64,000 nt of DNA, from positions 2,852,001 to 2,916,000 of the forward strand of contig NZ_CP048836.1 in the NCBI RefSeq assembly GCF_010983895.1, in the 5' to 3' direction. The position numbers and the translations under genes are program-made. Origin of the DNA: Nitrogeniibacter mangrovi. Its GTDB lineage: Bacteria > Pseudomonadota > Gammaproteobacteria > Burkholderiales > Rhodocyclaceae. Every line of letters begins with the position of its first letter. Within the stretch, counting starts at the first letter, position 1. Below, piece after piece: positions 3,806-49,376 of the stretch. Below the pieces are notes generated by a model. It ran no database searches. It was not told where the DNA came from and saw nothing but the letters and a program-made list of their open reading frames with translations.

Positions 3806-4054
3806 TCAACCCACCTTGGACTGAACGAAATCGACCAGCGTCCCCACGGACGCGAACGTGGCGCCGTCAATTTCATCGTCATCGACATACACCCCGAGAC
3901 GCTCTTCCATGAGATTGATGACCGCAACAACGGCCATCGAGTCGAGTTCCGGCAAGGCGCCCAGCAGCGGGGTGTCCAGGGAAAAGGTCTGTGCCCGACC
4001 ATTGAGGCCGAGCGCCTCATCCAGGATTTCCAGTACTTCGTTCTTGATATCCAA
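3806..4054 (-). CDS. Acyl carrier protein, exosortase-A locus type
   Basis: 82-residue phosphopantetheine carrier. The attachment motif is L-D-S-M-A with Ser39, followed by the usual helix VVAVINLMEERLGVYVDDDEID. I chose the TTG start at 4054 because GGAG lies 7 bases before it and the protein then begins (M)DIKNEVLEIL as ACPs do. An in-frame ATG at 4090 would add 12 residues and has no ribosome-binding site. The gene lies 74 bases after the AMP-forming ligase on the same strand, so the ligase is the natural candidate to load it. What the carrier holds (fatty acid, amino acid or other acid) cannot be read from the sequence. Confidence 0.85.
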   Translation of the reverse strand: MDIKNEVLEILDEALGLNGRAQTFSLDTPLLGALPELDSMAVVAVINLMEERLGVYVDDDEIDGATFASVGTLVDFVQSKVG

Positions 4055-4128
4055 CTCGAATCTCCATCCATCCAGCCATCGGCCGTTCATGCTCGCGATG
4101 CCGCAACGATGTCGCGGACGGGGGCATC

Positions 4129-5715
4129 CTATTTCAATTGGGATGCCTCGGCAAACAAATCCACCACGGAATCGGCCAACTGTCGCCGATCCACCTTGCC
4201 ATTGGGATTTCGCGGCAGTGGCCGATCGAAACAGATCACCTTCGCCGGCACCATGAACGCCGGTAGTTGCTGGCGGCAAGCCAGAAGCAGGCGTGATTCC
4301 AGATCGTCTTCCCCTGGCTCGACCATGACGATGAGCACCACCGCCTGCCCGAGTGTCGGATGCGGCGCACCCACGGCCACCACCTCCCGAATGCCCTCAA
4401 AGCCGTATAGCACCTCCTCCACTTCCGTCGGGCTCACCCGATAGCCCGAGGTCTTGATCATCTCGTCCTGGCGGCCGATGAAGTAAAGGAAGCCGTCGGC
4501 GTCGCGGCGCACCGTATCCCCCGAGAAAACCGCCAGCTCGGGCGTCGGAATGCCGTGAGGACGGCCAGGTGCCGGTTTGAATCTTTCAGCGGTGCGCCCC
4601 GGATCGTTCCAATAACCGAGCGACACATGCACGCCACGATGTACCAGCTCACCCGGCTCGTCCGGATCGCACAAGGTACCGTCCGGGCGGACCACCAGAA
4701 TTTCCGCGTTGGGGATCGCCTTGCCCATGGAATCGGGCCGGCGGTCGACCTCATCCGGCGGCAGATACGTGGACCGGAACGCTTCGGTGAGTCCGTACAT
4801 CAGATAGGGGCGGGCCTTCGGCAGGCGCTGGCGCAAGGCGTCGAGCGTCGTTCGGGGCATGTGTCCGCCGGAGTTGGTGAAATACCGCAGGTGGGCGTCG
4901 AGCCCCTCCGGCCACTCGAGCTGAGAGAGCTGGATCCACAGCGGCGGTACCGCCGCCAGCCCCGTGATGCGCTCCTTTTTGACGGCATTGACCACGTCCC
5001 GCGGCATCAGATAGTTGATCAGCACCGCGCAGGCACCGACGAGGAAGCTGGTGGTGATCTGATTCAGGCCGTAGTCGAAGCTCAACGGCAACACGGAAAG
5101 AATACGATCTTCACTCGTGTTCTCGAGGTACTCGGCCACGCTCCGGGCACCTTCGACGATGTTTCGATGCGACAGCACCACGCCCTTGGGTTTGCCGGTA
5201 CTCCCCGAGGTATACAGAATCGCCGCCATGTCCGCATCGACAGCGTGATTGGCACCGGGCTCGGCACCGGACCTTGCAGACCAGCGACTGACGAATGCCG
5301 CTTCCACCTCGACCGGGGCATCCCCGACGATCATGACGTCCTTAAGCGCAGGACACTGCGCCAACACGGGCGCCATCAACCCGATCCGCTCGGCGGTGGT
5401 CACCAGCAGGCGCACATCGCAATCGCGCATGATGTGCACCACCTGCTCCGGTTTGAGCAGCGGGTTGACCGGAACGAACACCGCGCCGGCAGCGTTGGCG
5501 CCAAAGAGGGCCACCACTGTCTCGATCCGTTTTTCCATCCACACGGCCACCCGCTCGCCCCGCCGGACCCCGAGCTCGCGAAACGCACCGGCCGTGTTCC
5601 GAATTTCGGTGGCCAGCTCGGCATAGGTCAGTTGCTCGGTACGATATTTCAGCGCCGGCGCATGCGGAGTGCGTGTGGCGCTATCGAAGACCAGTTCATG
5701 CAGCAAGCGGCCCAT
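4129..5715 (-). CDS. AMP-forming acyl-CoA/acyl-ACP ligase, exosortase A-associated
   Basis: ANL-superfamily adenylating enzyme of about 528 residues. The ATP-binding P-loop is ILYTSGSTGKPKGV (about 165-178). YGLTEAF follows near 300, then SGDTVRRDADGFLYFIGRQDEMIKTSGYRVSP with the hinge Asp/Lys, and the C-terminal NPNGKVDRR with the catalytic lysine. It matches the ligase family (TIGR03098) that occurs in exosortase-A genomes next to a PLP decarboxylase; that decarboxylase is found here at 12813. The ATG at 5715 is preferred because GAAGG lies 6 bases upstream. An ATG two codons earlier would abut that site. It heads the minus-strand unit with the ACP gene and faces the flippase gene across a 195-base divergent spacer. 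The substrate acid is unknown. Confidence 0.9.
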   Translation of the reverse strand: MGRLLHELVFDSATRTPHAPALKYRTEQLTYAELATEIRNTAGAFRELGVRRGERVAVWMEKRIETVVALFGANAAGAVFVPVNPLLKPEQVVHIMRDCDVRLLVTTAERIGLMAPVLAQCPALKDVMIVGDAPVEVEAAFVSRWSARSGAEPGANHAVDADMAAILYTSGSTGKPKGVVLSHRNIVEGARSVAEYLENTSEDRILSVLPLSFDYGLNQITTSFLVGACAVLINYLMPRDVVNAVKKERITGLAAVPPLWIQLSQLEWPEGLDAHLRYFTNSGGHMPRTTLDALRQRLPKARPYLMYGLTEAFRSTYLPPDEVDRRPDSMGKAIPNAEILVVRPDGTLCDPDEPGELVHRGVHVSLGYWNDPGRTAERFKPAPGRPHGIPTPELAVFSGDTVRRDADGFLYFIGRQDEMIKTSGYRVSPTEVEEVLYGFEGIREVVAVGAPHPTLGQAVVLIVMVEPGEDDLESRLLLACRQQLPAFMVPAKVICFDRPLPRNPNGKVDRRQLADSVVDLFAEASQLK

Positions 5716-5910
5716 CGTCATCCTTCGAGTTCATTCATGTTCGGGCATTGTCCCATAGCCGCGCATGTCATACGCTCCTGCTCCGGACGATGCGGCGGAT
5801 ATCCGGGGTGCAATGGTCGCCCAGTGCGCACCACGTCATCTGTGTCCGACATCACAATTGCGTATGGATAGTTGCGGTATCCTGCGCGCTCCTTACCTTG
5901 AAGCCCAGGC

Positions 5911-7398
5911 ATGCCCGCCACCCAAGCACCTGAATCCTCGCTGAAAGACAAGGTTGTTCACAGCGCCTTGTGGATGATCGCCACCCGCTGGGTCCATCGT
6001 CTGCTTGGCTTGATCAGCACCATGGTGCTGGCACGCGTCCTCATGCCGGAGGATTTCGGCGTCGTCGCGGCGGTGACTGCCGTCGTGGCCATCATGGACG
6101 GGTTCTTCGAGTTCGGCTTCGATCTGGCGCTGATACGAGAAAAGGACGCGACTCGCGACGATTTCGACACCGCGTGGACCATGCGCCTGCTCAAGGGCAT
6201 CCTCTTCGGGCTGGCCCTCATTGCGGCCTCGCCCCTCGTGGCCCACTACGCCGACGAGGGCGACATCGTCGCCATCAGCGCGCTGATTGGCGCCGGGCTC
6301 ATGATCCGGGGCGCGGAAAACGTCGGCATGGTGCAGTTCCAGAAGGAACTTCAGTTCGACCGCCTGTTCCGCATCAAGCTGTATCCGCGCATTCTTGGCG
6401 TCATCACCAGTATTGCGGTGGCCCTGTGGCTGCGTTCCTACTGGGCGATCGTGATCGGCGCGGTCATGCTCAACGTCTATCAGACCCTGTTCAGCTATCT
6501 GATGTGCCCCTTCCGCCCGCGGCTGCGGCTCGAAGGCGCCGGCAAGTTGTGGCGTTTTTCCAAATGGATCGTCATCTCCGCCATCAGCCGGCAACTGTTC
6601 GCCGCCACCGACCGGTTCGCGCTCTCCGGCTGGATTTCGAAAGAGCAACTGGGTTTCTTCAGCGTCGGCGGCAGCCTCGCCTCGATGATCACCAACGAGC
6701 TGGTCGGCGCTGTCGGCACCGCCCTGATTCCGGGCTATGCCAAGCTCCAGGACGAACAATCCCGGCTGCGTGCCGCCTTTCTCGCTTCGCAGTCGGCCTT
6801 CATCGCCCTGTTGGTCCCGGCCGCGGTGGGCGTCTTCGTGCTCTCGCGACCGCTGACCCAGGTGGTACTGGGCGCACAATGGACGGACGCGGCGCCGATC
6901 CTCGGATTGTTCGGGCTGTTCTACCTGTGCTATTCCATCGTCGAGAACCTGAACCGCTTCATGGCGATGACCGGGCTCCAGGTCATTTCGGCACGCAGTG
7001 GGATCGTGCGCAGCACGGTCTTCCTCCTGGCCATCTATCCGGCGTTCGAGATTGGGGGCATCGCCGGGCTCATCGGCACCAAGATCACCCTGTCCGCCGT
7101 CGAGATCCTGTTCCTGTCCTATCACTGCACCCGACGCATCGACACGCCGATGTCCCGCTATCTCGGCACCTACGTGCGTCCGCTGCTCGCCAGCGCGGCC
7201 ATGGCCGCAGCGACCCTGCCGCTCGTAGGCATGCTCCACACCCCGCCCGTGGTTACGCTGTTTGCCTGCGCGGGCGTCGGCGCCGTGATCTACGGCACCT
7301 GTTCCCTGGCCATCTGGCGTGTCTCCGGCCGCCCCAACGGACTGGAAGCCATCGTGATCGATCTGCTCGCCCGCAAAGGGCTGCTGCCGGGTCGCTGA
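5911..7398 (+). CDS. Lipopolysaccharide/O-antigen-type flippase (Wzx-like, MOP superfamily)
   Basis: 495-residue polytopic membrane protein. After a short cytosolic N-terminus comes the family's entry segment (ALWMIATRWVHRLLGLISTMVLARVLMPEDFG) and a regular run of hydrophobic segments up to about residue 480, compatible with 12-14 helices. It belongs to the polysaccharide-synthesis branch of MATE-like flippases, which move undecaprenyl-linked oligosaccharides across the inner membrane. It is the only flippase candidate in the window, so it is the likely partner of the Wzy-like, Wzz-like and Wza-like genes on the other strand. It is the first gene of a + strand run ending near 17124. The next gene starts 15 bases on. 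Confidence 0.9.
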   Translation: MPATQAPESSLKDKVVHSALWMIATRWVHRLLGLISTMVLARVLMPEDFGVVAAVTAVVAIMDGFFEFGFDLALIREKDATRDDFDTAWTMRLLKGILFGLALIAASPLVAHYADEGDIVAISALIGAGLMIRGAENVGMVQFQKELQFDRLFRIKLYPRILGVITSIAVALWLRSYWAIVIGAVMLNVYQTLFSYLMCPFRPRLRLEGAGKLWRFSKWIVISAISRQLFAATDRFALSGWISKEQLGFFSVGGSLASMITNELVGAVGTALIPGYAKLQDEQSRLRAAFLASQSAFIALLVPAAVGVFVLSRPLTQVVLGAQWTDAAPILGLFGLFYLCYSIVENLNRFMAMTGLQVISARSGIVRSTVFLLAIYPAFEIGGIAGLIGTKITLSAVEILFLSYHCTRRIDTPMSRYLGTYVRPLLASAAMAAATLPLVGMLHTPPVVTLFACAGVGAVIYGTCSLAIWRVSGRPNGLEAIVIDLLARKGLLPGR

Positions 7399-7413
7399 AT
7401 AGAGACTCCGGAC

Positions 7414-9168
7414 GTGGAACCAACCCTTGCACCCCTCCGCCCATCGAACTCCGTCCTCGTCCTCGACGGCGATCAGGCCTCCGCACTGTCGATCGTCCGC
7501 TCGTTGGGTCGATCCGGGTTGCACGTGGACGTTGCCAGCGCCGCCGAGCACCCCATCTGTGCCAGTTCCCGTCACACGCGCAGCTGTGCCCGCTATCCGG
7601 ACCCACTCAAGGAAGAGGCCGGATTCATCCGCTGGATCGAGACGCAGATCGAGCGCGAGGCGTACGCGCTGATCCTTCCGGTCACCGAGCGGACGCTGGT
7701 GCCGCTGCTGCACCACCGCGCCAAACTGGACGATCGTCGCATCGCCATGGCACCGAGCGAGGCACTCGAGCAGGTCCTGGACAAGGAACGCACGGTCGCC
7801 CTGGCCGAATCGCTTGGGATTGCCGTTCCGGCATCGGTCCCGGTCACTTCTCTGGACGATCTGGACCGGGCCGAGGCCGCACTGGGTTATCCCCTGGTGA
7901 TCAAGCCCTCGCGCTCGGTCGGCCATGGCAACGGCAGTGGCGTCCAGCTCACGGTCAGCTATGCCCAGGATCGCGACGAACTCGAAAAGCGGGTGAAACA
8001 CGCCCTCAACCATGGCGGCGTGATCTTGCAGGAGTACTTCCGTGGCGATGGCGTCGGCATCGAGTTGATCGCCGATCGGGGCGAGGTGCGCTTCGCCTTC
8101 CAGCATCGCCGCCTGCATGAAGTCCCGCTCACCGGCGGCGGCAGCAGCCTGCGTTGCAGCGAAGCCATCGTCCCGGCCCTGTTCGAGGCCGCCCGGGCCT
8201 TGGCCAAGGCCCTGAATTGGCACGGGGTCGCCATGGTCGAGTTCAAGTACGCACCGCAGACCGGCCAGTTCCGCCTCATGGAAATCAACGGCCGGTTCTG
8301 GGGTTCCCTGCCCCTGGCCATCGCCGCCGGCGCAGATTTCCCCTGCATGCTGTACGAGCTGCTGTGCGAAGGCCAAATCGCCGAACGCCCGCCGGCCCGA
8401 GAGGGCGTGGTGTGTCGCCAGTTGGGCCGCGATGTTGACTGGACGGAACACGTCCTGCGCCGCAACGCACCAACGTCGCTGGTCAACATTCCCGGCTGGA
8501 AAGAAGTGCTTCGGGACTGGGCGCTGGTCTTCTCGCCTCGCCACCATTTCGATGTGCAGTCCCTGCGCGACCCCCGTCCCGGTCTGGTGGACATCGGTCG
8601 GATCGTGCACAAACAGCTCCAACGGGTTACCGGGCGGCTCCATGACCGCCGGCAGCTGAAGCGGCAACTGCAACGGGCGCGGCAACGCCGAGAACCGGTG
8701 CGATCCGTCCTGTTCCTGTGCTACGGCAACATCAACCGGAGCGCCCTGGCGCATGCCTACGCCGCCCGGCGCAACGGTGAGTCGATGACACTCATGTCGG
8801 CCGGTTTCCATCCTCAGGACGGCCGCCCGGCGGATCCGGTCATGGTATCAACGGCCGCAGTCCGGCACGTCGATCTGAGCGCCTGGCGCTCGCACACGCT
8901 CGACGCCCGCATGGTGGCCTCGGCCGATCTGATCCTGGCCATGGAACAGGCCCACATCGACCGGCTGCTGGCCAGCTATCCGCAGGTGGCGGACAAGACC
9001 TTCCTGCTCGGCGCCGCTGGCGCGCATTCCCCCGATCAGGTCGAGATCCCCGACCCCTACGGTCTCGCGCCGGAAATCTACCAGGGCGTGTGCGAACAGG
9101 TGATCCGATCGGTGGACGCCTGGTTTCCCCAGGATCATCCCGCCCCGCCTTCCGGCACAGGACACTGA
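7414..9168 (+). CDS. ATP-grasp ligase fused to low-molecular-weight protein tyrosine phosphatase
   Basis: 584 residues with two domains. Residues 1-400 are an ATP-grasp carboxylate-amine ligase: N-terminal Rossmann-like half (VLVLDGDQASALSIVRSLG), then YPLVIKPSRSVGHGNGSGV, VILQEYFRGDGVGIEL, and the metal-binding MEINGRFWGSLPLA. Residues about 430-575 are a low-molecular-weight phosphotyrosine phosphatase: the P-loop reads C-Y-G-N-I-N-R-S with nucleophile Cys436 and Arg442, and the acid loop is IPDPYG with Asp547, so catalysis looks intact. A basic, helical linker (HDRRQLKRQLQRARQRR) joins them. The start is GTG at 7414. It is probably co-transcribed with the flippase and the GT2 gene (3-base gap). 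The phosphatase half could dephosphorylate the tyrosine kinase at 45144 in the manner of Wzb; the ligase substrate is unknown. Confidence 0.88.
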   Translation: MEPTLAPLRPSNSVLVLDGDQASALSIVRSLGRSGLHVDVASAAEHPICASSRHTRSCARYPDPLKEEAGFIRWIETQIEREAYALILPVTERTLVPLLHHRAKLDDRRIAMAPSEALEQVLDKERTVALAESLGIAVPASVPVTSLDDLDRAEAALGYPLVIKPSRSVGHGNGSGVQLTVSYAQDRDELEKRVKHALNHGGVILQEYFRGDGVGIELIADRGEVRFAFQHRRLHEVPLTGGGSSLRCSEAIVPALFEAARALAKALNWHGVAMVEFKYAPQTGQFRLMEINGRFWGSLPLAIAAGADFPCMLYELLCEGQIAERPPAREGVVCRQLGRDVDWTEHVLRRNAPTSLVNIPGWKEVLRDWALVFSPRHHFDVQSLRDPRPGLVDIGRIVHKQLQRVTGRLHDRRQLKRQLQRARQRREPVRSVLFLCYGNINRSALAHAYAARRNGESMTLMSAGFHPQDGRPADPVMVSTAAVRHVDLSAWRSHTLDARMVASADLILAMEQAHIDRLLASYPQVADKTFLLGAAGAHSPDQVEIPDPYGLAPEIYQGVCEQVIRSVDAWFPQDHPAPPSGTGH

Positions 9169-9171
9169 GCC

Positions 9172-10170
9172 ATGACCGACGCGAATCTTTCGCCCACCTT
9201 CAGCATCATCATCCCGACGCGGGATCGCGCAGCCCTGTTCGAACGCACGCTGCAATCCGTGTTCGAGCAGACGATCGACGATTTCGAGGTCATCATCGTC
9301 AACGATGGCTCCAGCGGCGAGCAGCTGGACGCCTATCGCACCATGGAAGCGCGTTACGATGCGCGCGTCCGATTCATCTATCTGCCGCACCGGGCCAAGG
9401 GCCACGGACCGGCCTACTCGCGCAACGTGGGCGCCGCGAGCGCCCGTGGCACCTATCTGTGCTTCCTCGACGACGACGACCTGTGGATCGATCCGGACCA
9501 TCTGCGCCGGGTGCGCGACAGCGTTGCCGCCAGCACCCGTCCCATCGATCTGTATTTCACCGATCAGCGCGCCGTGTTCCCGGACGGACAGGCGCATCCC
9601 GGCGGGCTCTGGATCTCCGGTCTGGAAGCGCGTATCGATACCTCGCCCGACGCCCTCGGCAACTACCCCGTCCGCCTCGAGCATCTCCTGCAACGCACGG
9701 GCTTTGCGCATCTGAACTGTACCGTCTACCGTCGAGCCTTCTTCGAAGCCATCGGCGGCATGGACGAATCGCTGCGCTACGAGAACGACCGGGATGTATA
9801 TCTGCGCGCCATCGATGCCGCCGAGTACATGCTCTACCATCCGGCCGTGATTGCCCAGCACCACATCCCCAATCCGAAACGGGCCGACAATGTCTCCACG
9901 GCCGTGAGCCTGATCGAGAAGAAGGTCATCCAGTTCCGAATCTGCGACAAGGCCATCGCATTCGGCAAACATGCCGCCATGCGCGCTTACGCGCGCCGGG
10001 CGAAGGGCTACGAACTCAAGAACATGGCCCACCTGCTCATGCAGGCGGGCAAACCTCGCGAAGCCTTCTTCTACATGCGCGAAGCACTGCTCGTTTCGTT
10101 CACATTCAAGTGGCTGGCCTATACGCTCGCATCGGGCGTCCGCCTGCTGCTTCGCCCCCAGGACCCCTGA
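9172..10170 (+). CDS. Glycosyltransferase family 2
   Basis: 332-residue GT-A inverting glycosyltransferase. FSIIIPTRDRAALFERTLQSV opens the nucleotide-binding half. VIIVNDGSS carries the first aspartate, and the DXD-like motif is FLDDDDLW near residue 100. The acceptor-side motif ENDRDVYLRAID lies about residue 205. No membrane segment precedes it; the C-terminal helices (FFYMREALLVSFTFKWLAYTLASGVRLLL) may lie on the membrane. It starts 3 bases after the ATP-grasp/phosphatase fusion and probably adds one sugar of the repeat unit. The donor cannot be deduced. Confidence 0.92.
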   Translation: MTDANLSPTFSIIIPTRDRAALFERTLQSVFEQTIDDFEVIIVNDGSSGEQLDAYRTMEARYDARVRFIYLPHRAKGHGPAYSRNVGAASARGTYLCFLDDDDLWIDPDHLRRVRDSVAASTRPIDLYFTDQRAVFPDGQAHPGGLWISGLEARIDTSPDALGNYPVRLEHLLQRTGFAHLNCTVYRRAFFEAIGGMDESLRYENDRDVYLRAIDAAEYMLYHPAVIAQHHIPNPKRADNVSTAVSLIEKKVIQFRICDKAIAFGKHAAMRAYARRAKGYELKNMAHLLMQAGKPREAFFYMREALLVSFTFKWLAYTLASGVRLLLRPQDP

Positions 10171-10184
10171 CAGGACATCGGTTT

Positions 10185-10949
10185 ATGTCGTTCTTTTCGG
10201 CCCTGCTGACCAATCCCGAGCTCATCCTGCACCATCGGAATATCTTCCTGCTGAGCCACATGCGCGCCAACACCAGCCTTTTCGGCCACCTGATCGGCAG
10301 CCATCCGCAGGTGGAGGGCTACTACGAAATGCACATCGGCTACTACGGGTGGAAGAGCCTGTGGCGGCAGAAGCTGCTTCATTTCAAGACCCATTCCGTG
10401 AAGCCGGGTGCGCACTGGATGTTCGACAAGGTGCTCCACGACGGCCACCATGTGGCGCCGTCGATCCTGGCCCGCCCGAACAGCCGGACCCTCGTCATGC
10501 TGCGCGCGCCGGAACAGTCCATCAAGAGCCTGGTGGCCCTTTATCGCAAGCGCAACCCCCAGTTGCCCGAAGCGACACCCGAAGGCGCCACCCGCTACTA
10601 TGTGGATCGACTCGAATCCCTCGCCCGCATGGCGCGGGAGCTCGGTCCCCGCTACTTCTACCTTGATGCCGAATGCCTGATCGAACGCACCGACACGACG
10701 CTCGCCGCCCTGTCGGAATGGCTTGGCTTCGACACCCCGATTCCCTCGGAATACGATACGTTTTCCAACACCGGCCAGGGCAACACCGGCGATCACTCCA
10801 GCCGCCTGAAATCGGGCAAGGTCAACCGCGCCAAGAGCGATTACTCGGATATCGTGCTCAGCGACGCACAGATGGACGCCGCCGAAGCCGCCTACACACA
10901 GCATCGCGGCCGCCTCATTGCCGGCAGCGCCCGAGCCTCGACGCTATGA
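10185..10949 (+). CDS. Sulfotransferase family protein (PAPS-dependent)
   Basis: 254 residues. The N-terminal segment IFLLSHMRANTSLFGHLIG (about 20-38) sits where sulfotransferases carry the 5'-phosphosulfate-binding loop (usual form SxPRSGTT). A strand-helix then holds the 3'-phosphate motif LRAPEQSIKSLVALYRKR (about 107-125). A late FDTPIPSEYDTFSNTGQGNTGD segment resembles the C-terminal loop of the family. The PSB loop is divergent (R-A-N-T for R-S-G-T), so activity is likely but not certain. The cofactor PAPS would be made by cysD/cysNC and its product PAP removed by cysQ, all encoded 6-11 kb away. The target (sugar, lipid or small molecule) is not evident. Its stop overlaps the start of the next gene (ATGA). 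Confidence 0.8.
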   Translation: MSFFSALLTNPELILHHRNIFLLSHMRANTSLFGHLIGSHPQVEGYYEMHIGYYGWKSLWRQKLLHFKTHSVKPGAHWMFDKVLHDGHHVAPSILARPNSRTLVMLRAPEQSIKSLVALYRKRNPQLPEATPEGATRYYVDRLESLARMARELGPRYFYLDAECLIERTDTTLAALSEWLGFDTPIPSEYDTFSNTGQGNTGDHSSRLKSGKVNRAKSDYSDIVLSDAQMDAAEAAYTQHRGRLIAGSARASTL

Positions 10950-11845
10950 ACGCCCCTGTACACGCCTTCGAATCGCCCGGAACCATGTCTGAGCAGAATG
11001 CCAGAGTCTCCACCGCCCGCCCGATGTTCCTCGACCTCAATGGCCGGCGCCTGTTCACACTCCAGATCGTCCCGACCGGGCCCATCACCGGCGCCCTGCT
11101 CTACCTGCCCCCGTTTGCCGAGGAGATGAATCGCTGCCGGTCTCACGTGGTCAGCCAGGCACGCGCGCTGGCTGCCCGCGGGTACCACACGCTCATCCTC
11201 GACCCGTACGGAACGGGGGAGAGCGAGGGCGAGATCACCGACGCCGACTGGGACGCCTGGCGGCTCGACGCCCTCGAAGCGGCACGCTGGCTGGTGGCCG
11301 AAACCAGCGCCCCCCTGACCCTCTGGGGGATACGCACCGGCGCCCTGCTCGCTGCCGAGCTCGTGGCGAGTGGCGACACACCACCGCTGCAGCAAGTGCT
11401 CTTCTGGCAACCCGTGCTCGACGGCAAACTGTTCCTGAACCAGCACCTGCGCCTGCGAATCGCCGCGCAGATGTTCACCGAAGGCGAGAAGGAAACCGGC
11501 GACACCCTGCGCAATCGCCTCAATGCCGGGGAAACCCTCGAAATCGCCGGCTATCCGCTCACCGGACGCCTTGCCGGGCAGCTCGGATCGCTGCGGATGG
11601 ACGCCTCTGTCGAACATCTGGCACAGGTCCCGGTCTGCTGGCTCGAGGTCGTCGCCAAGGCCGGCCAGGCCCTCGCCCTGCCGAGCCGCAAGCTCATCGA
11701 CACGCTCGGAGAAGCCGGCGGGCGGGTCCATGTCGAGTCCGTCGCCTGCCCGATGATCTGGCAACTGCATGAGCGGGCCGAGGCGCCGCAACTGGAAACC
11801 GCGACGCTCGCGCTGCTCGACACCGTCGCCGGAGCGATCCAATGA
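10946..11845 (+). CDS. Alpha/beta hydrolase, exosortase A system-associated type 2
   Basis: 299-residue alpha/beta-hydrolase-fold protein of the family that accompanies exosortase A (TIGR03101). Fold markers are GALLYLPPFAEEMN (strand and oxyanion-type loop, about 49-62), TLILDPYGTGESEG (about 82-95) and the elbow position LWGIRTGALLA (about 126-136). The elbow reads G-I-R-T-G, so the usual serine nucleophile is absent. Either the enzyme uses another residue or it is a binding or thioesterase-like relic. The start is the ATG overlapping the sulfotransferase stop; the 4-base overlaps on both sides (ATGA) indicate tight translational coupling in one operon. It is always paired with the type 1 hydrolase that follows. 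Confidence 0.85.
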   Translation: MNAPVHAFESPGTMSEQNARVSTARPMFLDLNGRRLFTLQIVPTGPITGALLYLPPFAEEMNRCRSHVVSQARALAARGYHTLILDPYGTGESEGEITDADWDAWRLDALEAARWLVAETSAPLTLWGIRTGALLAAELVASGDTPPLQQVLFWQPVLDGKLFLNQHLRLRIAAQMFTEGEKETGDTLRNRLNAGETLEIAGYPLTGRLAGQLGSLRMDASVEHLAQVPVCWLEVVAKAGQALALPSRKLIDTLGEAGGRVHVESVACPMIWQLHERAEAPQLETATLALLDTVAGAIQ

Positions 11846-12756
11846 GCGCGACCGAAACCCCGATCGTGATCGAGTGCGACGGCGCCGAGCTGATCGGCAT
11901 GATGCACGTGCCCGCAGAAATCAAGACCCGGGGCGTGGTCGCCATTGTCGCCGGCGGCCCCCAGTATCGCGGCGGCGTGGGCCGGCTGCAGGTGCAGCTG
12001 GCGCGCCAGCTGGCCGCCGCCGGCACCCCGGTGTTGCGGTTCGACTATCGCGGTCTTGGCGACAGCGAAGGCACCTTCCGCGGCTTTCAGGACGTCGAGC
12101 CCGATTTGCGCGCCGCCATCGATGCGTTTCTCTCACGGGTCCCGCAAATGAAGGAAGTGGTGCTGTGGGGGGGCTGCGACGCGGCAGCCGCCATCATGAT
12201 CAATGCCTGGAAATATCCGGCGGTGACGGGGCTCATGGTCGGCAACCCGTGGGTGCACACCGAAGAGACCGGCGACGCGGTCACCGTCAAGCATCACTAC
12301 GCCAAACGTATCCGGGACAAGGACTTCTGGCTCAAGCTGCTGCGGGGCCAGTACAACCCCTTCCCGGCGCTGCTGACCATCGGCCGCGCCCTCTGGGCCA
12401 GAGCGCGCAAGCGCCTGTCTGCTCACAAAGCCAGCGCCGGCGGACCGGCCCAGCGCGACGAGCGCCACTTGCCCTTCGTCACCCGCATGCGTCTGGGCAT
12501 GTCCCGCTTCGGAGGCGACGTGCTCCTGCTCATGAGCGGTCGCAGCCTGGTGAGCAAGGAATTCGACGAACTGGTCGGCAGCGATGCCAGCTGGCAACAG
12601 GCCATGGCGACGCCGCGCCATCTGGCCCGGCACGACATGCCCGACGCCGACCAGACCTATTCCTCCGTGGCCTCGCGGCGCGAAGTGATCGCCATCGCCC
12701 GCCAATGGCTGCACGATCCGCATGCATCGTTGAATGCGTCGCAGACTCAGGAATGA
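11842..12756 (+). CDS. Alpha/beta hydrolase, exosortase A system-associated type 1
   Basis: 304-residue alpha/beta-hydrolase-fold protein of the exosortase-A-linked family (TIGR03100). Markers are VVAIVAGGPQYRGGVGR (about 32-48), LRFDYRGLGDSEG (about 65-77) and the elbow VLWGGCDAAAA (about 107-117). The elbow reads G-G-C-D-A: a cysteine (Cys112) stands where serine hydrolases have serine, as in dienelactone hydrolases. After about residue 170 a basic insert (ARARKRLSAHKAS) and a helical cap follow. The 4-base overlap with the type 2 gene shows coupling. A thioesterase or acyl-transfer role on the ACP-bound intermediate is an inference from the neighbours. Confidence 0.87.
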   Translation: MSATETPIVIECDGAELIGMMHVPAEIKTRGVVAIVAGGPQYRGGVGRLQVQLARQLAAAGTPVLRFDYRGLGDSEGTFRGFQDVEPDLRAAIDAFLSRVPQMKEVVLWGGCDAAAAIMINAWKYPAVTGLMVGNPWVHTEETGDAVTVKHHYAKRIRDKDFWLKLLRGQYNPFPALLTIGRALWARARKRLSAHKASAGGPAQRDERHLPFVTRMRLGMSRFGGDVLLLMSGRSLVSKEFDELVGSDASWQQAMATPRHLARHDMPDADQTYSSVASRREVIAIARQWLHDPHASLNASQTQE

Positions 12757-12812
12757 CATCATGCGAACGTATCGGGCCAGACGTCCGCTCCCGGAATCGA
12801 TCAGTGAATGAC

Positions 12813-14054
12813 ATGAACTCCCCGAAAACACCGCCCGCCCACGTCCCCATGGACCAGTTCCGCGTCGAACACGGCGAGCTTCTGGTGGGCGGGATCCCGC
12901 TCACACGGCTGGCGGCACGCGTCGGCAGCACACCGTTCTACGCCTACGACCGACAGTTGCTGGACGCACGCGTTGGCGAACTGCGGGCGGCGCTGCCGAC
13001 CGCCGTCAAGCTCCACTACGCGATCAAGGCAAACCCCATGCCGGCGCTGGTCGGTCACATGGCGGGGCTGGTGGATGGTCTCGACGTGGCCTCCGCGGGC
13101 GAACTGGCAGTGGCGCTCGACACCGGCATGAGCCCGCACGACATCTCCTTCGCCGGGCCGGGCAAACGCGTCGAGGAACTGCGTCAGGCGGTCGCCGCCG
13201 GCGTCTTGATCAACGCCGAGTCGCCGTCGGAAATCGAGGCCCTGGCCGCTGTCGCCGAATCGACCGGCTGGACACCGCGGATCGCCCTGCGCGTCAACCC
13301 GGATTTCGAACTCAAGAGCTCGGGGATGCGCATGGGTGGCGGCCCCAAGCAGTTCGGCATCGACGCCGAGCAGATCCCCGCCGTGATCCAGCGCACCGAG
13401 ACGCTCGGCCTGCATATCGAGGGCTTTCACCTGTTTGCCGGCTCGCAGAACCTGCAGGCCGAGGCCATCGTCGAAGCGCAGCGCAACTGCTTCGACCTTG
13501 CACGCCGTCTGGCCGACCATGTGAGCACCCCCATCCGCATGCTGAACCTGGGCGGCGGCATCGGCATCCCCTATTTCCCGGGCAACGAGCGCGTCGATCT
13601 GGCTCCGATCGGTGCCAATCTCGCCCGCATCGCCGACGAGGCCGCGACCGTTTTCCCCCAGGCGGAACTGTGCATCGAACTGGGACGGTTTCTGGTGGGC
13701 GAAGCCGGCATCTATGTCTGCCGCGTGCTCGACCGCAAGGAATCCCGTGGCCAGGTCTTCCTGGTCACCGACGGTGGTCTGCATCATCACCTGTCGGCCT
13801 CGGGCAACTTCGGCCAGGTCATTCGCAAGAACTATCCGGTGGCCATCGGCAACCGGATGAGCGATACCGAACTGGAGCTGGCCAACGTCGTCGGCCCGCT
13901 GTGCACCCCGCTCGACATCCTGGGCGATCGCATGCTGCTGCCCAAGGCCCGGCCGGGCGACCTGGTGGTGGTCTACCAGTCGGGCGCCTACGGCGCCACC
14001 GCCAGCCCGCAACGCTTCCTCGGCCACCCGGCCGTCACCGAAGTCCTGGTCTGA
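12813..14054 (+). CDS. PLP-dependent decarboxylase, exosortase A system-associated (Orn/DAP/Arg group IV fold)
   Basis: 413 residues, fold-type III decarboxylase related to diaminopimelate decarboxylase. PLP lysine is Lys72 in HYAIKANPMPALV. The phosphate-binding glycine loop is NLGGGIGIPYF (about 248-258). E-L-G-R-F-L-V at about 291 contributes the substrate-side arginine, and the C-terminal barrel holds GPLCTPLDIL with its cysteine (about residue 365) and the YQSGAYG motif. It matches the family (TIGR03099) that occurs next to the AMP ligase TIGR03098. DAP decarboxylase itself is unlikely because of that context. BtrK of butirosin synthesis, which decarboxylates an amino acid while it is bound to a carrier protein, has the same fold and is the most useful comparison. 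The ATG at 12813 gives the family-typical N-terminus. Confidence 0.9.
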   Translation: MNSPKTPPAHVPMDQFRVEHGELLVGGIPLTRLAARVGSTPFYAYDRQLLDARVGELRAALPTAVKLHYAIKANPMPALVGHMAGLVDGLDVASAGELAVALDTGMSPHDISFAGPGKRVEELRQAVAAGVLINAESPSEIEALAAVAESTGWTPRIALRVNPDFELKSSGMRMGGGPKQFGIDAEQIPAVIQRTETLGLHIEGFHLFAGSQNLQAEAIVEAQRNCFDLARRLADHVSTPIRMLNLGGGIGIPYFPGNERVDLAPIGANLARIADEAATVFPQAELCIELGRFLVGEAGIYVCRVLDRKESRGQVFLVTDGGLHHHLSASGNFGQVIRKNYPVAIGNRMSDTELELANVVGPLCTPLDILGDRMLLPKARPGDLVVVYQSGAYGATASPQRFLGHPAVTEVLV

Positions 14055-14072
14055 ACCCCTTTTGCCTTCGAC

Positions 14073-15812
14073 ATGAACCAGATCACGCCCCCCCAGGCAC
14101 TTGCCGAACGATTTGAATGGCCGCACGCGGAAGTACGGCTCTCGCAGGCCGCTTCCGTGGCCGAATCCGATGGCCTCGTGTGCATCGCGCGCGGACGGCC
14201 CGAATTCCCGGCGGACAGCACGCGGGACGCGTTGCACACCCCGGCTGACCACTGGCTCGCACTCTTCCGCGCCCATGGTGCCCAGGCCCCCGAACGGGTC
14301 CACGGCCGCTTCGGTGTCGCCTTCATCGACACCCGCGAACGCAGCGTGTTTCTGGCCGCCGACCGCTTCGGTACCGCCCCCTGGTGCTTCGCGGTACGCC
14401 ATGACCGCCTGATCGTCGGCGACCGGGCCGATCTGGTCGCCGACACGGACAGCGCGCTGTCGCCCGACGCCGTCTACGCCTACCTGTTCCACCACATGAT
14501 TCCGTCGCCCCTGACGATCTTTGCCGACGTCACCCGGCTCGAGGGCGGACACCGGCTCGAATGGCAGGGTGACACCCCGCGCGTCGACGCCTGGTGGCGC
14601 CCGGTGTTCACCGAGCCGCGCCAGATGGATTTCGGCGAAGCCAAGGCGCGCTTCATGGACATCATCGAGGCGGCCGTACGCAAGGCCACCGATCGGGGCC
14701 ATGTGGGCGCCTTTCTGTCGGGCGGAACCGACAGCTCGACGGTCGCGGGGATGCTCACGAAGGTCCTCGGGCGCCCTGCCGAAACCTATTCGATGGGTTT
14801 CGATGCCTCCGGCTATGACGAGATGGAATATGCCCGCATCGCCTCGAAGCATTTCGGCACCAATCACCACGAATACTATGTAACGCCGCAGGACCTGCTC
14901 GAAGCCATTCCCAGGGTCGCACGCCACTATGACCAGCCCTTCGGCAACTCCTCTGCCGCGCCTGCCTGGCTGTGCGCCTCGCTGGCGCGTCGTGACGGTA
15001 TCGACACACTGCTGGCCGGCGATGGCGGCGATGAATTGTTCGGCGGCAACACCCGCTATGCCAAGCAACGCGTCTTCGGCGTTTACGACCGGGTCCCCGC
15101 TGCCTTGCGCAATGCCTTGCTCGAGCCGGCGCTGTCGCTACCAATCAGCAAGCGGCTGCCCATCGTCAAGAAGGCCGCCAGCTACGTGGACCAGGCCAAG
15201 GTGCCCCTGCCCCACCGCATTCACCAATACAACCTGCTGGTGCGGCTTGGTGCCGACCAGGTGTTCGCACCGGATTTTCTCGCACAGATCGACCAGAACG
15301 CGCCCGCCCGTGCTCACGAGGCGGTCTGGCAGCGGATCAATGCCGACTCGGACCTGAACCGCCTGCTCGCCTTCGACTGGAAATACACCCTCGAAGACAA
15401 TGACCTGCCGAAGATCCTCGGCACCACCGAGCTGGCCGGTCTGGGCGTCGAATTCCCCCTGCTCGACGATGCGCTGCTCGACTTCTCGCTCAGCCTGCCA
15501 CTGGACTACAAGCTGCGCGGCTTCAAGCTGCGCTGGTTCTTCAAGGAGGCACTGCGCGACTTCCTGCCAGACGCCATCATCACCAAGAAGAAACATGGCT
15601 TCGGCCTGCCCTTCGGCGTCTGGGCCTGCGAGCACAAGGGCCTGCACGACCTGTCTCACGACACCCTGAACGCGCTCAAGGGGCGTGGCATCGTGAACCC
15701 GCGCTTCATCGACCGCCTGCTCGGCGAGTTGCTGCCCGAGCATCCCGGCTATTACGGCGAACTGGTGTGGATTCTCACGATGATGGAGTTGTGGCTGTCC
15801 CAAACCCGCTGA
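14073..15812 (+). CDS. Asparagine-synthetase-like amide ligase lacking the glutaminase cysteine
   Basis: 579 residues. The C-terminal synthetase domain is well kept: ATP-pyrophosphatase loop FLSGGTDSSTVAGML (216-222 core), LLAGDGGDELFGGNTRY (about 318-334) and KHGFGLPFGVWA (about 508-519). The N-terminal half keeps a shortened Ntn-glutaminase fold (VHGRFGVAFIDTR, FLAADRFGTAPWCFA) but starts MNQITPP. The catalytic Cys2 and the RGPD glutamine loop of true AsnB are missing. It should therefore form an amide or acyl-adenylate using free ammonia or another amine instead of glutamine, as beta-lactam synthetases do. It follows the PLP decarboxylase by 18 bases and is likely part of the same carrier-protein pathway. 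A second, glutaminase-competent paralogue lies at 33646. Confidence 0.88.
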   Translation: MNQITPPQALAERFEWPHAEVRLSQAASVAESDGLVCIARGRPEFPADSTRDALHTPADHWLALFRAHGAQAPERVHGRFGVAFIDTRERSVFLAADRFGTAPWCFAVRHDRLIVGDRADLVADTDSALSPDAVYAYLFHHMIPSPLTIFADVTRLEGGHRLEWQGDTPRVDAWWRPVFTEPRQMDFGEAKARFMDIIEAAVRKATDRGHVGAFLSGGTDSSTVAGMLTKVLGRPAETYSMGFDASGYDEMEYARIASKHFGTNHHEYYVTPQDLLEAIPRVARHYDQPFGNSSAAPAWLCASLARRDGIDTLLAGDGGDELFGGNTRYAKQRVFGVYDRVPAALRNALLEPALSLPISKRLPIVKKAASYVDQAKVPLPHRIHQYNLLVRLGADQVFAPDFLAQIDQNAPARAHEAVWQRINADSDLNRLLAFDWKYTLEDNDLPKILGTTELAGLGVEFPLLDDALLDFSLSLPLDYKLRGFKLRWFFKEALRDFLPDAIITKKKHGFGLPFGVWACEHKGLHDLSHDTLNALKGRGIVNPRFIDRLLGELLPEHPGYYGELVWILTMMELWLSQTR

Positions 15813-16047: not shown

Positions 16048-17124
16048 GTGAAATGCACTCTATTTGCTTGGGAGAGTCACCTGTTCGGCGTCTACCGCAC
16101 CCTTCTCGCCCTCGCCGTGCTGTTCCAGCACCTGGCGGACATCCCCCTGATCGGGCACTTCGCGGTCTATGGGTTCTTCGTGCTCAGCGGCTACCTCATG
16201 ACCACGATCATGCACCAGACCTACGGCTACACGACGCGTGGCCGCTTGGCCTACTTCCTCAACCGCTTCCTGCGCCTGTTTCCCACCTACTGGATCATCT
16301 GCCTGCTCACCCTCGGGCTGATCGTACTGCAGGGAGAACCGCTCACCCGGAGCTATCACGACGCGATCTACGTGCCGACTCGCGGCGTCGATATCCTCGC
16401 CAACCTGTCGCTGATCTTCCCCGCCTTGTCACCCAAGTGGGTCGAGCCCCGTCTGGCCCCCCCGACCTGGGCCCTGACGCTGGAACTCATCCACTACGTT
16501 CTGATCGCTTTGGGCGTTTCGCGCTCGCGACGCATCACCTGGCTTTGGCTCGCCGTCGCGGCCAGCTACTTTGCGGCAACCTATGCGCTGGGCCTCGGGC
16601 ACGAGTCGCGCTATTCCTACCTGCCCGCCGCGTCGCTGCCGTTCTCGATCGGCGCGCTCCTGTTCCACTATCGGGACGCGACGCGTGAATTCGTCGCCCG
16701 GATACCCGGGCACCCGCTGGTCTGGCTCCTCGCGGTCGTCCCGCTGGCGCTCACGGCCCAACTGGACCATCGCGCCTACATCGAACCGCTGTTTTTCATG
16801 AACATGGCACTGCACGCGTTGATCATCGCCAAGCTGCGCGACTGGCCACGCGGCGGATGGCTGGGGCAATCCGACAAGCGTATCGGCGACCTGAGCTATC
16901 CCATGTATCTGGGTCATTACCTGGCCGGCCTCTCGGTGTCGCTGGTGCTGTGGGGCGCTCCGGTGCACGGTGCAACGCCGCAAGGGGTGATCTCGGCGCT
17001 CGTGGCGGCCGTGGTGGTGTCGTGCCTGGCGTATGCGATCAATGTCACCGTGGACCGGAACATCGAACGTGCGCGCCAGGCTCTGAAGAAACGCGCCCGC
17101 CCGATCGCGCCCGCGTCCGCCTGA
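16048..17124 (+). CDS. Membrane acyltransferase, acyltransferase-3 (OafA-like) family
   Basis: 358 residues with about ten hydrophobic helices. The family's first block is FGVYRTLLALAVLFQHLADIPLIGHFAVYGFFVLSGYLM, with the His of the putative catalytic site in FQHL. It is followed by the RFLRLFPTYWI arginine motif (about 74-84) and, near the end, LSYPMYLGHYLAG. Such proteins move acetyl or other acyl groups onto sugars of O-antigens, exopolysaccharides or lipids. The GTG at 16048 is the only reasonable start that keeps the first helix. The 235-base spacer from the previous gene suggests its own promoter or a looser link to the operon. The last + strand gene before the convergent cysNC. Confidence 0.85.
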   Translation: MKCTLFAWESHLFGVYRTLLALAVLFQHLADIPLIGHFAVYGFFVLSGYLMTTIMHQTYGYTTRGRLAYFLNRFLRLFPTYWIICLLTLGLIVLQGEPLTRSYHDAIYVPTRGVDILANLSLIFPALSPKWVEPRLAPPTWALTLELIHYVLIALGVSRSRRITWLWLAVAASYFAATYALGLGHESRYSYLPAASLPFSIGALLFHYRDATREFVARIPGHPLVWLLAVVPLALTAQLDHRAYIEPLFFMNMALHALIIAKLRDWPRGGWLGQSDKRIGDLSYPMYLGHYLAGLSVSLVLWGAPVHGATPQGVISALVAAVVVSCLAYAINVTVDRNIERARQALKKRARPIAPASA

Positions 17125-17172: not shown

Positions 17173-19080
17173 TCAGACGTCGAGCAGCCCCCGCGCAGCC
17201 AGCACCTCGACGACCCGGTCCGCCGCCTCTTCCGGCGAGCATTCGGCGGTGCTCACGCGCACCTCCGGTTCCTCCGGCGGCTCGTAGGGCGAGTCGATGC
17301 CGGTGAAGTTCTTCAGTTCGCCGCGCCGGGCCTTCTTGTAGAGGCCTTTGGGGTCGCGCTCCTCGGCCACGGCCAGCGGGGTGTCCACGTGGATCTCGAG
17401 GAACTCGCCCTCTTCGACCAGCGCGCGCGCCATGCGGCGCTCGGAGCGGAACGGGGAGATGAAGGCGGTGATCACGATCAGGCCGGCGTCGACCATCAAC
17501 CGGGCGACCTCGGCCACGCGGCGGATGTTCTCCACCCGGTCGGCATCGGTGAAGCCCAGATCCTTGTTGAGCCCGTGGCGCACGTTGTCGCCATCGAGCA
17601 GGTAGGTGTGCCGGCCCATGGCGTGCAGTTTCTTCTCCACCAGGTTGGCGATGGTGGACTTGCCCGCACCCGACAGACCGGTGAGCCACAGCACGCAGGG
17701 CTTCTGGCCCTTGATGGCGCCGCGGGCAGCCTTGTCCACGTCCACATGCTGCATGTGGATGTTGTGGGCACGGCGCAGGGCGAAGTGGATGAGGCCGGCG
17801 CCGACGGTGTTGTTGGTGAGCCGGTCGATGAGGATGAAGCCGCCGGTGTCGGGATTGTCCTTGTAGGCATCGAAGGCGATCTGGCGGTCCAGGCTCAGGT
17901 TGCACACGCCGATGCCGTTCAGTTCCAGTTTCTTGGCCGCCATGTGGTCGAGGTTGTTCACGTTCACCTGGTACTTGATCTCGGTGACCGTGGCCATGAC
18001 CGTCTTGGCGCCGATCTTGAGCAGGTAGGGGCGGCCCGGGAACATGGGCTCGTCGTGCATCCACACCACCGTGACCTCGAACTGGTCGGCCGAACTGCAC
18101 GGCGCCTCGATGGTGGAGATGACGTCGCCGCGGGAGATGTCGATCTCGTCGTTGAGCGTGAGCGTGACCGACTGGCCGGCGATGGCCTGGGGCAGGTCGC
18201 CGTCGCGGGTGACGATGCGCGCCACCGAGCTTTCCTTGCCGGAGGGCTGCACGCGGATACGGTCGCCCACCTTGACGACGCCGGAGGCCAGCGTGCCGGC
18301 AAAGCCACGGAAATCGAGGTTCGGCCGGTTGACCCACTGCACCGGCAGGCGGAAGGGCTGGGCCTGCAGACGGGTCTCATCGACTTCCACCGTCTCCAGG
18401 TAGGCCATGAGCGTGGCGCCGTGGTACCAGGGCATGCGGTCGCTCGGCTCGATGATGTTGTCGCCCTTGAACGCCGACATGGGGATGAAGGTGACCGACG
18501 CCAGGCCGATCTGCGTAGCGAAGTCGCGGAAATCCTCGACGATCTTGCGGAAGGTGTTTTCGCTGTAGTCGACCAGATCCATCTTGTTGACGGCCACCAC
18601 GATGTGGCGGATGCCGATCAGCGACACCAGGTAGCTGTGGCGCCGGGTCTGGGTGAGCACGCCCTTGCGCGCATCGACCATGAGCACCGCCACGTCGGCG
18701 GTGGAGGCACCGGTGACCATGTTGCGGGTGTATTGCTCGTGCCCCGGGGTGTCGGCCACGATGAATTTGCGCCGGTCGGTGGAGAAGAAGCGGTAGGCCA
18801 CGTCGATGGTGATGCCCTGCTCGCGCTCGGCGGCGAGGCCGTCGACCAGCAGCGCAAAGTCCAGCTGCTCGCCCTGGGTGCCCCACTTGCGCGAGTCGGC
18901 TTCCACCGCCGCGAGCTGGTCTTCGAACAGCATCTTGGATTCGTACAGCAGACGGCCGATGAGTGTGCTCTTGCCGTCGTCCACGCTGCCGCAGGTGATG
19001 AAACGCAGCAGACTCTTGTGCTCGTGGGCCTTGAGGTACTGCTCGATGTCGGTGGCGATGAGATCGGAGATATGGGCCAT
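17173..19080 (-). CDS. cysNC: Bifunctional sulfate adenylyltransferase large subunit / adenylylsulfate kinase
   Basis: 635 residues. Residues 1-440 are CysN, the GTPase subunit of ATP sulfurylase: G1 GSVDDGKST (31-39), G3 DTPGHEQ and G4 NKMD. Residues 468-635 are APS kinase (CysC): P-loop GLSGAGKST (468-476), [17 protein letters not shown], and the lid-region [22 protein letters not shown]. The protein therefore takes sulfate through APS to PAPS, together with CysD. The fused form is common in betaproteobacteria. It is probably transcribed from the cysD side through a 150-base spacer that carries an inverted repeat element. PAPS serves sulfate assimilation in many bacteria, but here a sulfotransferase lies 6 kb away. 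Confidence 0.97.
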
Positions 19081-48605: not shown

Positions 48606-49376
48606 ATGAACGGAGCTTATCACGCCACGCCGGCATCAAACGTGACAACCGCCCCACCGATCATGCAATCGCTTGGCATTGCGCCGACGGACGCGAAGGC
48701 GAGCCGAGAGTTCGTACTCTCACGCAGTGATTTCCAGATCCGCCTCGGAACGACGGCCGATGGCCAGCGCAGTCGTGTCAGCATGCTGATCCAGCGCATG
48801 TACGCCTGGCGCGGCCTGCTGACCCACGCACCGTCGCGCCTCGATGACCGCCCCAATCAGTTGACGCTCATCGCATCCCGCGGGACCACCATGTTCGGCA
48901 CGCTGACCTTGAGCCTGGATTCTCCTGAGGGACTGTGCGCGGACGAGCTCTATGCCGATGAGATCGCCGCAGCCCGGCAGCGCGGCGCCCGCGTCTGCGA
49001 ACTGACGCGCCTGGCCATCGACCCGGCCTTCAACTCCAAGGAGGTCTTGGGCTCGATCTTCCATCTGGCCTACATCTTCGGGCGCCTGGTCCACGGCATG
49101 TCGGACCTGTTCATCGAGGTCAATCCACGCCATGTCGGTTTCTACACCCGGATGCTCGGCTTTCGGGTGGCCGGGGAAGAACGGATCTGTCCCCGCGTCG
49201 AAGCTCCGGCCGTGTTGCTGCACCTGCCGCTCGACTACGTCGACGAGCAGATCTCGCACCATGCCAGCCTAACCGGGTCCGGAGAAAGAAACCTGTACAC
49301 CTACTTTTTCAGCGCCGCCGAACAACAGGGTCTGCTGCGCCGGCTTCAGTCGGATCCGGCCGTTCTCGAAATCTGA
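48606..49376 (+). CDS. PEP-CTERM/exosortase-associated N-acyltransferase, FeeM-like
   Basis: 256 residues, GNAT-like fold of the FeeM/TIGR03694 type. The core is SRSDFQIRLGTTADGQRSRVSMLIQRMY (entry), LTLIASRGTTMFGTLTLSLDS, then ELTRLAIDPAFNSKEVLGSIFHLAYIFG with the E-x-x-R-x-A motif (about 140-165) and FIEVNPRHVGFYTRMLGFRVAGEE (about 176-200). FeeM makes N-acyl amino acids using acyl-ACP, and related LuxI-type enzymes use the same fold. In this locus an ACP and its AMP ligase are present at 3806-5715, so acyl-ACP is a plausible donor (inference). It is transcribed divergently from the eps operon and is not coupled to its right-hand neighbour. Confidence 0.88.
   Translation: MNGAYHATPASNVTTAPPIMQSLGIAPTDAKASREFVLSRSDFQIRLGTTADGQRSRVSMLIQRMYAWRGLLTHAPSRLDDRPNQLTLIASRGTTMFGTLTLSLDSPEGLCADELYADEIAAARQRGARVCELTRLAIDPAFNSKEVLGSIFHLAYIFGRLVHGMSDLFIEVNPRHVGFYTRMLGFRVAGEERICPRVEAPAVLLHLPLDYVDEQISHHASLTGSGERNLYTYFFSAAEQQGLLRRLQSDPAVLEI

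Follow-up and report, generated by a model that had tools for sequence, protein, structure and literature searches.

What is built on the stand-alone acyl carrier protein (ACP) that shares a stretch of DNA with an exosortase-A polysaccharide locus in Nitrogeniibacter mangrovi, and what is it built for? The sequence studied, hereafter the window, is a 64-kb stretch (positions 2,852,001-2,916,000) of the 4.24-Mb single-contig genome of this bacterium, with the genes in question at 3.8-15.8 kb and the exosortase-A polysaccharide locus at ~30-48 kb. An earlier, sequence-only reading had proposed that the ACP, an AMP (adenosine monophosphate)-forming ligase, a pyridoxal 5'-phosphate (PLP) decarboxylase, an ATP-grasp enzyme, an amide synthetase and two hydrolases make a decarboxylated aminoacyl or acyl thioester on the ACP and attach it to the polymer, its lipid carrier or the product of exosortase A (XrtA). 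All these genes are indeed present. By analogy with assayed homologues, we are quite confident that the ACP, the ligase and the decarboxylase would together generate beta-alanyl-ACP; the whole statement, that this generator serves the decoration of a polysaccharide, we give a probability of roughly 0.6. The ACP (3806-4054, minus strand) comprises 82 amino acids from a TTG start, carries Ser39 in the motif ELDSMAVV and scores 23.4 bits with the Pfam model PP-binding (cut-off 20.8). The ligase (4129-5721, minus strand) and the decarboxylase (12813-14054, plus strand), like the two hydrolases, exceed their curated cut-offs, namely those of TIGR03098 (779 vs 592 bits) and TIGR03099 (621 vs 478 bits), two models labelled 'hypothetical equivalog' with no substrate stated. 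We predict the former to be an L-aspartate (beta-carboxyl):ACP ligase and the latter a BtrK-like aspartyl-ACP alpha-decarboxylase.

The best free-standing relative of solved structure of the ligase is VinN from vicenistatin biosynthesis (241 bits), with only multidomain LgrA constructs scoring higher, and its segment 195-345, compared with 177,635 PDB sequences (E ≤ 1e-6), retrieves three sequences only: VinN in two constructs, at 66 and 65 bits, and a 4-coumarate ligase at 34 bits. Asp230 of VinN is proposed to recognise the amino group and Ser299 and Arg331 the carboxyl group of methyl-aspartate (PMC7756342), and Lys330 lines the pocket together with Arg331 (PMC9484153). The columns of Asp230 and Arg331 are occupied by Asp and Arg in all 28 rows of one ligase alignment, including that of the window (Asp216 and Arg316), and in 72/72 rows of another, which excludes fragments under ~480 residues; at the position of Ser299, 82 of the 100 rows have Thr and 18 Ser. 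Both the Asp and the Arg are missing from all seven AMP ligases that rank next in the same genome (0/7), weaker matches lying outside this comparison.

A biochemical precedent is provided by AfcQ, assayed in 2025, which acts in the synthesis of the lipopeptide AFC-BC11 in the Burkholderia cepacia complex. AfcQ adenylates L-aspartate, not beta-alanine, and loads the carrier AfcK, its authors concluding that aspartate is loaded through the side-chain carboxyl; Arg311 of AfcQ, the equivalent of VinN Arg331, is modelled to orient L-aspartate, and AfcP decarboxylates the aspartate on AfcK in vitro to give the beta-alanyl carrier (PMC12186527). A Burkholderia cenocepacia locus in our sample (L185), with a decarboxylase and a ligase in this order, an AMP-binding gene and an AurF-like oxygenase, probably holds afcP-afcQ. 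The L185 ligase has the same pocket motifs as the window ligase, to which it is 54% identical over 368 amino acids, and scores 523 bits with TIGR03098 (model positions 158-516), under the cut-off; its Arg and Lys are 192 positions apart, just as in AfcQ (311, 503), a weak sign, as 9/100 family rows share it. Another Burkholderia ligase (L182) passes the cut-off with 700 bits and adjoins a decarboxylase and a frame read as an acyl-coenzyme A dehydrogenase. The VinN-type pocket and the AfcQ precedent together indicate L-aspartate as the probable substrate, which the sequence-only reading had left open, and the pocket also makes an ACP loaded only with ordinary fatty acids improbable.

As for the decarboxylase, its closest solved relative is BtrK of butirosin biosynthesis (290 bits, the next scoring 168), which supports the comparison with BtrK drawn at the outset. 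The proposal that an aminoacyl thioester is formed and decarboxylated on the ACP is thus supported, both steps being inferred from assayed homologues. The cassette would put an established module to a new use; its chemistry is not of a new kind. AfcQ/AfcK/AfcP likewise comprise a free-standing VinN-type ligase, a stand-alone carrier and a PLP decarboxylase, but the afc product is a lipopeptide completed by fatty acyl-AMP ligase (FAAL) and ketoacyl-ACP synthase (KAS) III-like enzymes (PMC12186527), whereas the window cassette neighbours a flippase, a glycosyltransferase, degenerate hydrolases and the exosortase locus. VinN/VinL/VinO (PMC11284099) cover the same three functions, with Asp230 and Arg331 kept and Ser299 present as Ser/Thr in the window family, but the vicenistatin substrate is 3-methyl-aspartate, which becomes a polyketide starter, and the window family has Phe for Lys330. 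Counterparts of VinM, VinK and VinJ were not noticed, no search aimed at them having been made. BolO/BolC/BolN of the bolagladins, too, are a VinN-like ligase, an ACP and a BtrK-like decarboxylase proposed to make a beta-alanyl thioester; their module, however, feeds a nonribosomal peptide synthetase (NRPS) (PMC7756342).

The three genes keep close company across genomes. In a set of 61 genomes (that of N. mangrovi and 60 relatives; decarboxylase over the curated cut-off, ligase at E ≤ 1e-150), the ligase and decarboxylase families occur in the same 25, two of the 25 ligases falling under the TIGR03098 cut-off, and an ACP of the same family lies in the fetched stretches around the cassette in 23 of these; a draft genome (G004) has only a piece of the decarboxylase, at a contig end. 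In a class-level set of 185 genomes (ligase E ≤ 1e-140, decarboxylase E ≤ 1e-100, with two decarboxylases under the cut-off), each family is found in 21 genomes and both in 19, as counted by hand from tables, against ~2.4 expected under independence. A third set consists of the best 80 of 586 confirmed decarboxylase loci, chosen by decarboxylase sequence and sharing some genomes with the relatives (e.g. L110, G003). The 57 loci of at least 17 kb contain the ligase (55), the ACP (47), hydrolase 2 (38), hydrolase 1 (37) and the amide synthetase (18). When all 80 loci are read as stop-to-stop frames, 73 hold both ligase and decarboxylase, with 64 same-strand pairs at most 300 bp apart; of 62 ACP frames, 57 are separated from the ligase by at most 500 bp or from hydrolase 2 by at most 200 bp, every one of the 39 close ACP-hydrolase 2 pairs shares a strand, and the hydrolases are adjacent in 43 of the 44 loci holding both. 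As a background, the ACP model (≥25 bits) matches the 64-kb window a single time and has no match at all in the 52.7 kb of 12 control loci. Since ligase and decarboxylase coincide in the same genomes and the ACP recurs in the long loci and in no control locus, the association of the three is not a matter of chance, and the genetic linkage of a BtrK-type decarboxylase to a stand-alone ACP holds.

The two hydrolases, too, are uniform in one respect. Hydrolase 1 (TIGR03100, 273 bits vs cut-off 168; 11842-12756, plus strand) has Cys at the nucleophile elbow (WGGCDA), as do all rows of both family alignments (22/22 and 45/45, the window included), and hydrolase 2 (TIGR03101, 236 bits vs 203; 10946-11845, plus strand) has Arg at this position (WGIRTG), again without exception (23/23 and 44/44, the window included). 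Neither looks like a serine hydrolase, because Cys and Arg stand where Ser is usual; a fold search with hydrolase 1 returned ordinary feruloyl/cinnamoyl esterases, which gave no clue to its function. A Shinella protein of 602 residues (L181:5334-7142), encoded beside a flippase, the GNAT-like family 'gn' (see below), the ACP, the ligase and the decarboxylase, divides into a first half with a weak resemblance to hydrolase 2 (27 bits), in which Gly occupies the elbow, and a second half that matches hydrolase 1 (70 bits) and has the elbow Cys. It seems to be a hydrolase 2-hydrolase 1 fusion, a hint that the two act together. Four genomes of the same genus as the window (L075, L080, L085, L086) have two ACP-hydrolase sets each, the second ACP reading EFNSLTVV and being paired with a hydrolase 1 that has Gln for His; of the two hydrolase pairs the window has only that of this second type, together with an ACP of the first type.

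The pathway that we propose would start with the ligase activating the beta-carboxyl of L-aspartate, whose alpha-amino group would be held by Asp216 and alpha-carboxylate by Arg316, and loading the activated aspartate onto the pantetheine of the ACP. The decarboxylase would then strip the alpha-carboxyl from the bound residue to leave beta-alanyl-S-ACP. In exosortase-A genomes the dedicated hydrolase pair encoded with the ACP might handle the thioester next, and an acyltransferase differing from locus to locus would transfer the beta-alanyl group to a sugar of the exopolysaccharide or of the lipid-linked repeat, before or during export. The parts given here to the hydrolases and to the acceptor are read from the gene neighbourhood, a polysaccharide being the best inference. 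The D-alanylation of teichoic acids offers an analogy: there, the AMP ligase DltA and the carrier protein DltC supply the amino acid that decorates the polymer, with transfer proceeding through DltB. Ligase and carrier are common to both, and so would be the decoration of a polymer, but the Dlt system has no decarboxylase and its proteins belong to other families; DltA is also among the PDB matches of the window ligase. It is doubtful, though conceivable, that the ligase adds further aspartate units to beta-alanyl-ACP, as AfcQ does, and that the resulting short poly-beta-alanine, a natural polyamide, is grafted onto the exopolysaccharide by the Cys-dependent hydrolase 1 and its partner hydrolase 2; if so, the floc matrix would bear cationic amine side chains.

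We found no prior statement of the assignment from L-aspartate to beta-alanyl-ACP in the titles and abstract beginnings of open-licence papers. None of the six words looked for occurs in PMC1569441 (Haft 2006), and 'decarboxylase' is absent from the available portions of two floc papers (PMC9012009, PMC9850573), the first of which reports that floc formation in Zoogloea resiniphila requires exopolysaccharide with PEP-CTERM proteins. The assignment reduces the substrate question of the exosortase-A ligase and decarboxylase to a short enzyme assay and predicts a definite group, the beta-alanyl amine, in exopolysaccharides of the Z. resiniphila floc kind. A module of the kind that makes antibiotic starter units would thereby also be found among polysaccharide genes and be separable from the exosortase, although the current family name implies that the latter is needed.

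How closely the cassette is tied to XrtA can be judged from its distribution. The names of TIGR03098 and TIGR03099 imply a restriction to exosortase-A genomes, which does not hold: an XrtA match is absent from three of the 25 relatives with the ligase-decarboxylase pair and from eight of the 21 class-level genomes with the decarboxylase (three of these eight being less than 90% complete). ACP, ligase and decarboxylase also occur in glycosyltransferase-bearing polysaccharide clusters of Sinorhizobium meliloti pSymB, Aureimonas pAU20a and Shinella, and no XrtA was found on these three alphaproteobacterial plasmid records, to which the search was confined. The proposed attachment to a polymer therefore stands as far as some link to polysaccharide is concerned, whereas dependence on the XrtA product is contradicted by these genomes and plasmids. 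Hydrolases 1 and 2 over the cut-off occur in the same 22/61 genomes, all with XrtA, and a genome without XrtA (G045) gives weak, below-cut-off hydrolase matches; the pair stands without hydrolases in one genome with XrtA (G014) and in three with no XrtA match (G020, G024, G037). Even the hydrolases are not strictly XrtA-bound, because the fusion-like Shinella protein lies on a record without XrtA. XrtA without the pair is found in G015, G050 and G052, as well as in the draft G004.

Several observations weigh against a beta-alanyl-ACP generator serving polysaccharide decoration. Two relatives (G016, G027) yielded no ACP in the stretches fetched around the cassette, and in a third (G051) ligase and decarboxylase lie ~1.9 Mb apart. 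XrtA without the cassette is common, the decarboxylase not being found, at the threshold used, in 21/34 class-level XrtA genomes. Minimal cassettes (L089, L093, L094) belong to genomes without XrtA, and no glycosyltransferase was recognised among the ten scanned neighbours of these cassettes, which were only argB-like, housekeeping and regulator genes, with a GNAT protein and a phosphohexomutase in L089. In Burkholderia the ligase family works, or probably works, in lipopeptide synthesis, which means that service to a polysaccharide is not a given. There is no constant acceptor enzyme, GNAT families, an aminotransferase, the amide synthetase and the hydrolases each being present in part of the loci; the synthetase, the Wzx flippase and the sulfotransferase of the window may be unrelated to the unit. 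Hydrolase 1 of the window, like two others of the 45, has Gln in the usual His column.

Some of these observations would suit a cassette whose beta-alanine goes into a small metabolite, either diffusible or lipid-linked and akin to a lipopeptide, with the exopolysaccharide neighbourhood being a regulatory convenience. We regard this as unlikely, yet as the most probable of the alternatives. It could draw on the minimal cassettes, on the FeeM-family acyltransferase within the window and on the Burkholderia members, which adjoin the putative acyl-coenzyme A dehydrogenase or, at L185, the AMP-binding gene and the AurF-like oxygenase and so resemble the published afc lipopeptide cluster. However, no NRPS, FAAL or KAS was recognised among the scanned window proteins (54-64 kb lay outside the scan), though a PaaK-type AMP ligase lies at 29975-31420; all 22 relatives with both hydrolases over the cut-off have XrtA; and glycosyltransferase-rich surroundings recur on the three alphaproteobacterial plasmids. 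The PaaK-type protein (minus strand), a second AMP-ligase-like protein, sits inside the exosortase-A locus and scores below all curated cut-offs listed.

Two further points of the same adverse kind concern the amino acid. The column of VinN Lys330 holds Phe in 100/100 ligase rows, so the pocket differs from that of VinN and leaves room for glutamate or a substituted aspartate, and the solved decarboxylase nearest to that of the window, BtrK, takes a glutamyl thioester as its substrate, its PDB name being L-glutamyl-[BtrI acyl-carrier protein] decarboxylase. In butirosin biosynthesis the loader, BtrJ, is an ATP-grasp enzyme and its substrate is glutamate. The ligase might correspondingly load the gamma-carboxyl of L-glutamate and the decarboxylase yield 4-aminobutyryl-ACP. 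We consider such a pathway somewhat less probable again than a diffusible metabolite, because the likely loader resembles the aspartate enzymes VinN and AfcQ, not BtrJ, and the L185 ligase, the probable AfcQ, has the same pocket motifs. The cassette thus resembles BtrI/BtrJ/BtrK in its decarboxylase and differs in that an AMP ligase probably does the loading and the ATP-grasp protein lies outside the core. A row of genes for a pre-ATP-grasp protein, a PLP decarboxylase and an ACP, reminiscent of BtrJ-BtrK-BtrI, was observed in an NRPS cluster on a Streptomyces decoyicus plasmid (L179).

Kinship of the decarboxylase with diaminopimelate decarboxylase is apparent from its score with the LysA model TIGR01048 (about 253-256 bits), under the cut-off of 298, while a separate lysA of 500 bits lies elsewhere in the genome. 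Cassette decarboxylases read GPLC[TA]P (CTPLD) and ELGR, the corresponding motifs of five lysA proteins being CESGD and EPGR. In a tree of 23 decarboxylases LysA is separate with 100/100 support and the cassette proteins group with those of Sinorhizobium, Aureimonas, Sphingomonas and Burkholderia (100/99), half of the inner branches (10/20) being open and Streptomyces M54 and L092 being long branches. The reading of the enzyme as a paralogue of diaminopimelate decarboxylase that uses free meso-diaminopimelate or lysine-like amino acids, as its LysA-family score might suggest, is highly improbable and was rejected given the sub-threshold score, the genome's own lysA, the missing lysA motifs, the separate clade and the tie to ACP and ligase.

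The remaining genes of the span have a looser relation to the core. The ATP-grasp protein, fused to a low-molecular-weight phosphotyrosine phosphatase (7414-9168, plus strand), had been likened to BtrJ; its fusion family occurs in just 10/110 clustered loci (the window included), eight of them from its own genus, so it is mostly a genus-level neighbour, and with the VinN-type ligase as the likely loader we rejected it as a BtrJ analogue. The asparagine-synthetase-like amide synthetase (14073-15812, plus strand) was correctly described as lacking the glutaminase Cys: it is a relative of TIGR03108 at 234 bits, far under the cut-off of 817, with the SGGTDS loop present and the MCG-type N-terminal motif absent from its family (15/15 rows and 20 further rows), whereas the true TIGR03108 protein of the window is at 33646-35565. 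Three genes of the same span had gone unlisted, those for a Wzx/MOP-type polysaccharide flippase (5911-7398, plus strand), a family-2 glycosyltransferase (GT2; 9172-10170, plus strand) and a sulfotransferase (PF13469, 33 bits; 10185-10949, plus strand). The claim of a divergent promoter in the stretch separating the ligase and flippase genes (5722-5910) found no backing, as this stretch has no consensus sigma-70 or sigma-54 site; across the window the sigma-70 consensus gives three matches against 1.9 expected and the sigma-54 consensus nine against 12.8, below expectation, and a sigma-54 promoter was rejected.

Recurrent neighbours in the 110 clustered loci, whose families were each named from one representative, include two PF13480 acyltransferase families (19 and 16 loci), a DegT aminotransferase (23), a TPR protein (40) and flippases. 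A membrane acyltransferase (Acyl_transf_3; 16048-17124, plus strand) is a possible acceptor-side enzyme of the window. The FemAB-family XrtA-associated protein (39508-40545, minus strand), near exosortase A itself (36765-38324, minus strand), was rejected as the cassette's own transferase, a homologue being present on a contig of G015, an XrtA genome without the cassette. The GNAT-like family 'gn', possibly an acyltransferase, occurs beside or near the cassette or an ACP-hydrolase set in seven loci spanning alpha- and betaproteobacteria (L101, L126, L140, L162, L177, L178, L181). Its AlphaFold model is poor (predicted local distance difference test, pLDDT, 57), it scores 20.8 bits with Pfam Acetyltransf_1 (cut-off 20.7), and hhalign gave no match between it and the two PF13480 families. 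FeeM enzymes use acyl-ACP as donors, and the FeeM-family N-acyltransferase of the window (PF21926, 183 bits; 48606-49376, plus strand), which adjoins polysaccharide export genes, is a candidate partner of the ACP.

Two observations concern other modifications of the polymer. The XrtA polysaccharide deacetylase (TIGR03006; 40556-41389, minus strand) looks truncated: a single open reading frame accounts for no more than model positions 1-189 of 272, the remainder apparently being encoded in a different frame, owing to gene decay or a sequencing error. A bifunctional CysN/CysC for sulfate activation (17173-19080) and the sulfotransferase both lie near the cassette, so the polymer may also be sulfated; a sulfotransferase is likewise found near the ACP, ligase and decarboxylase genes of S. 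meliloti.

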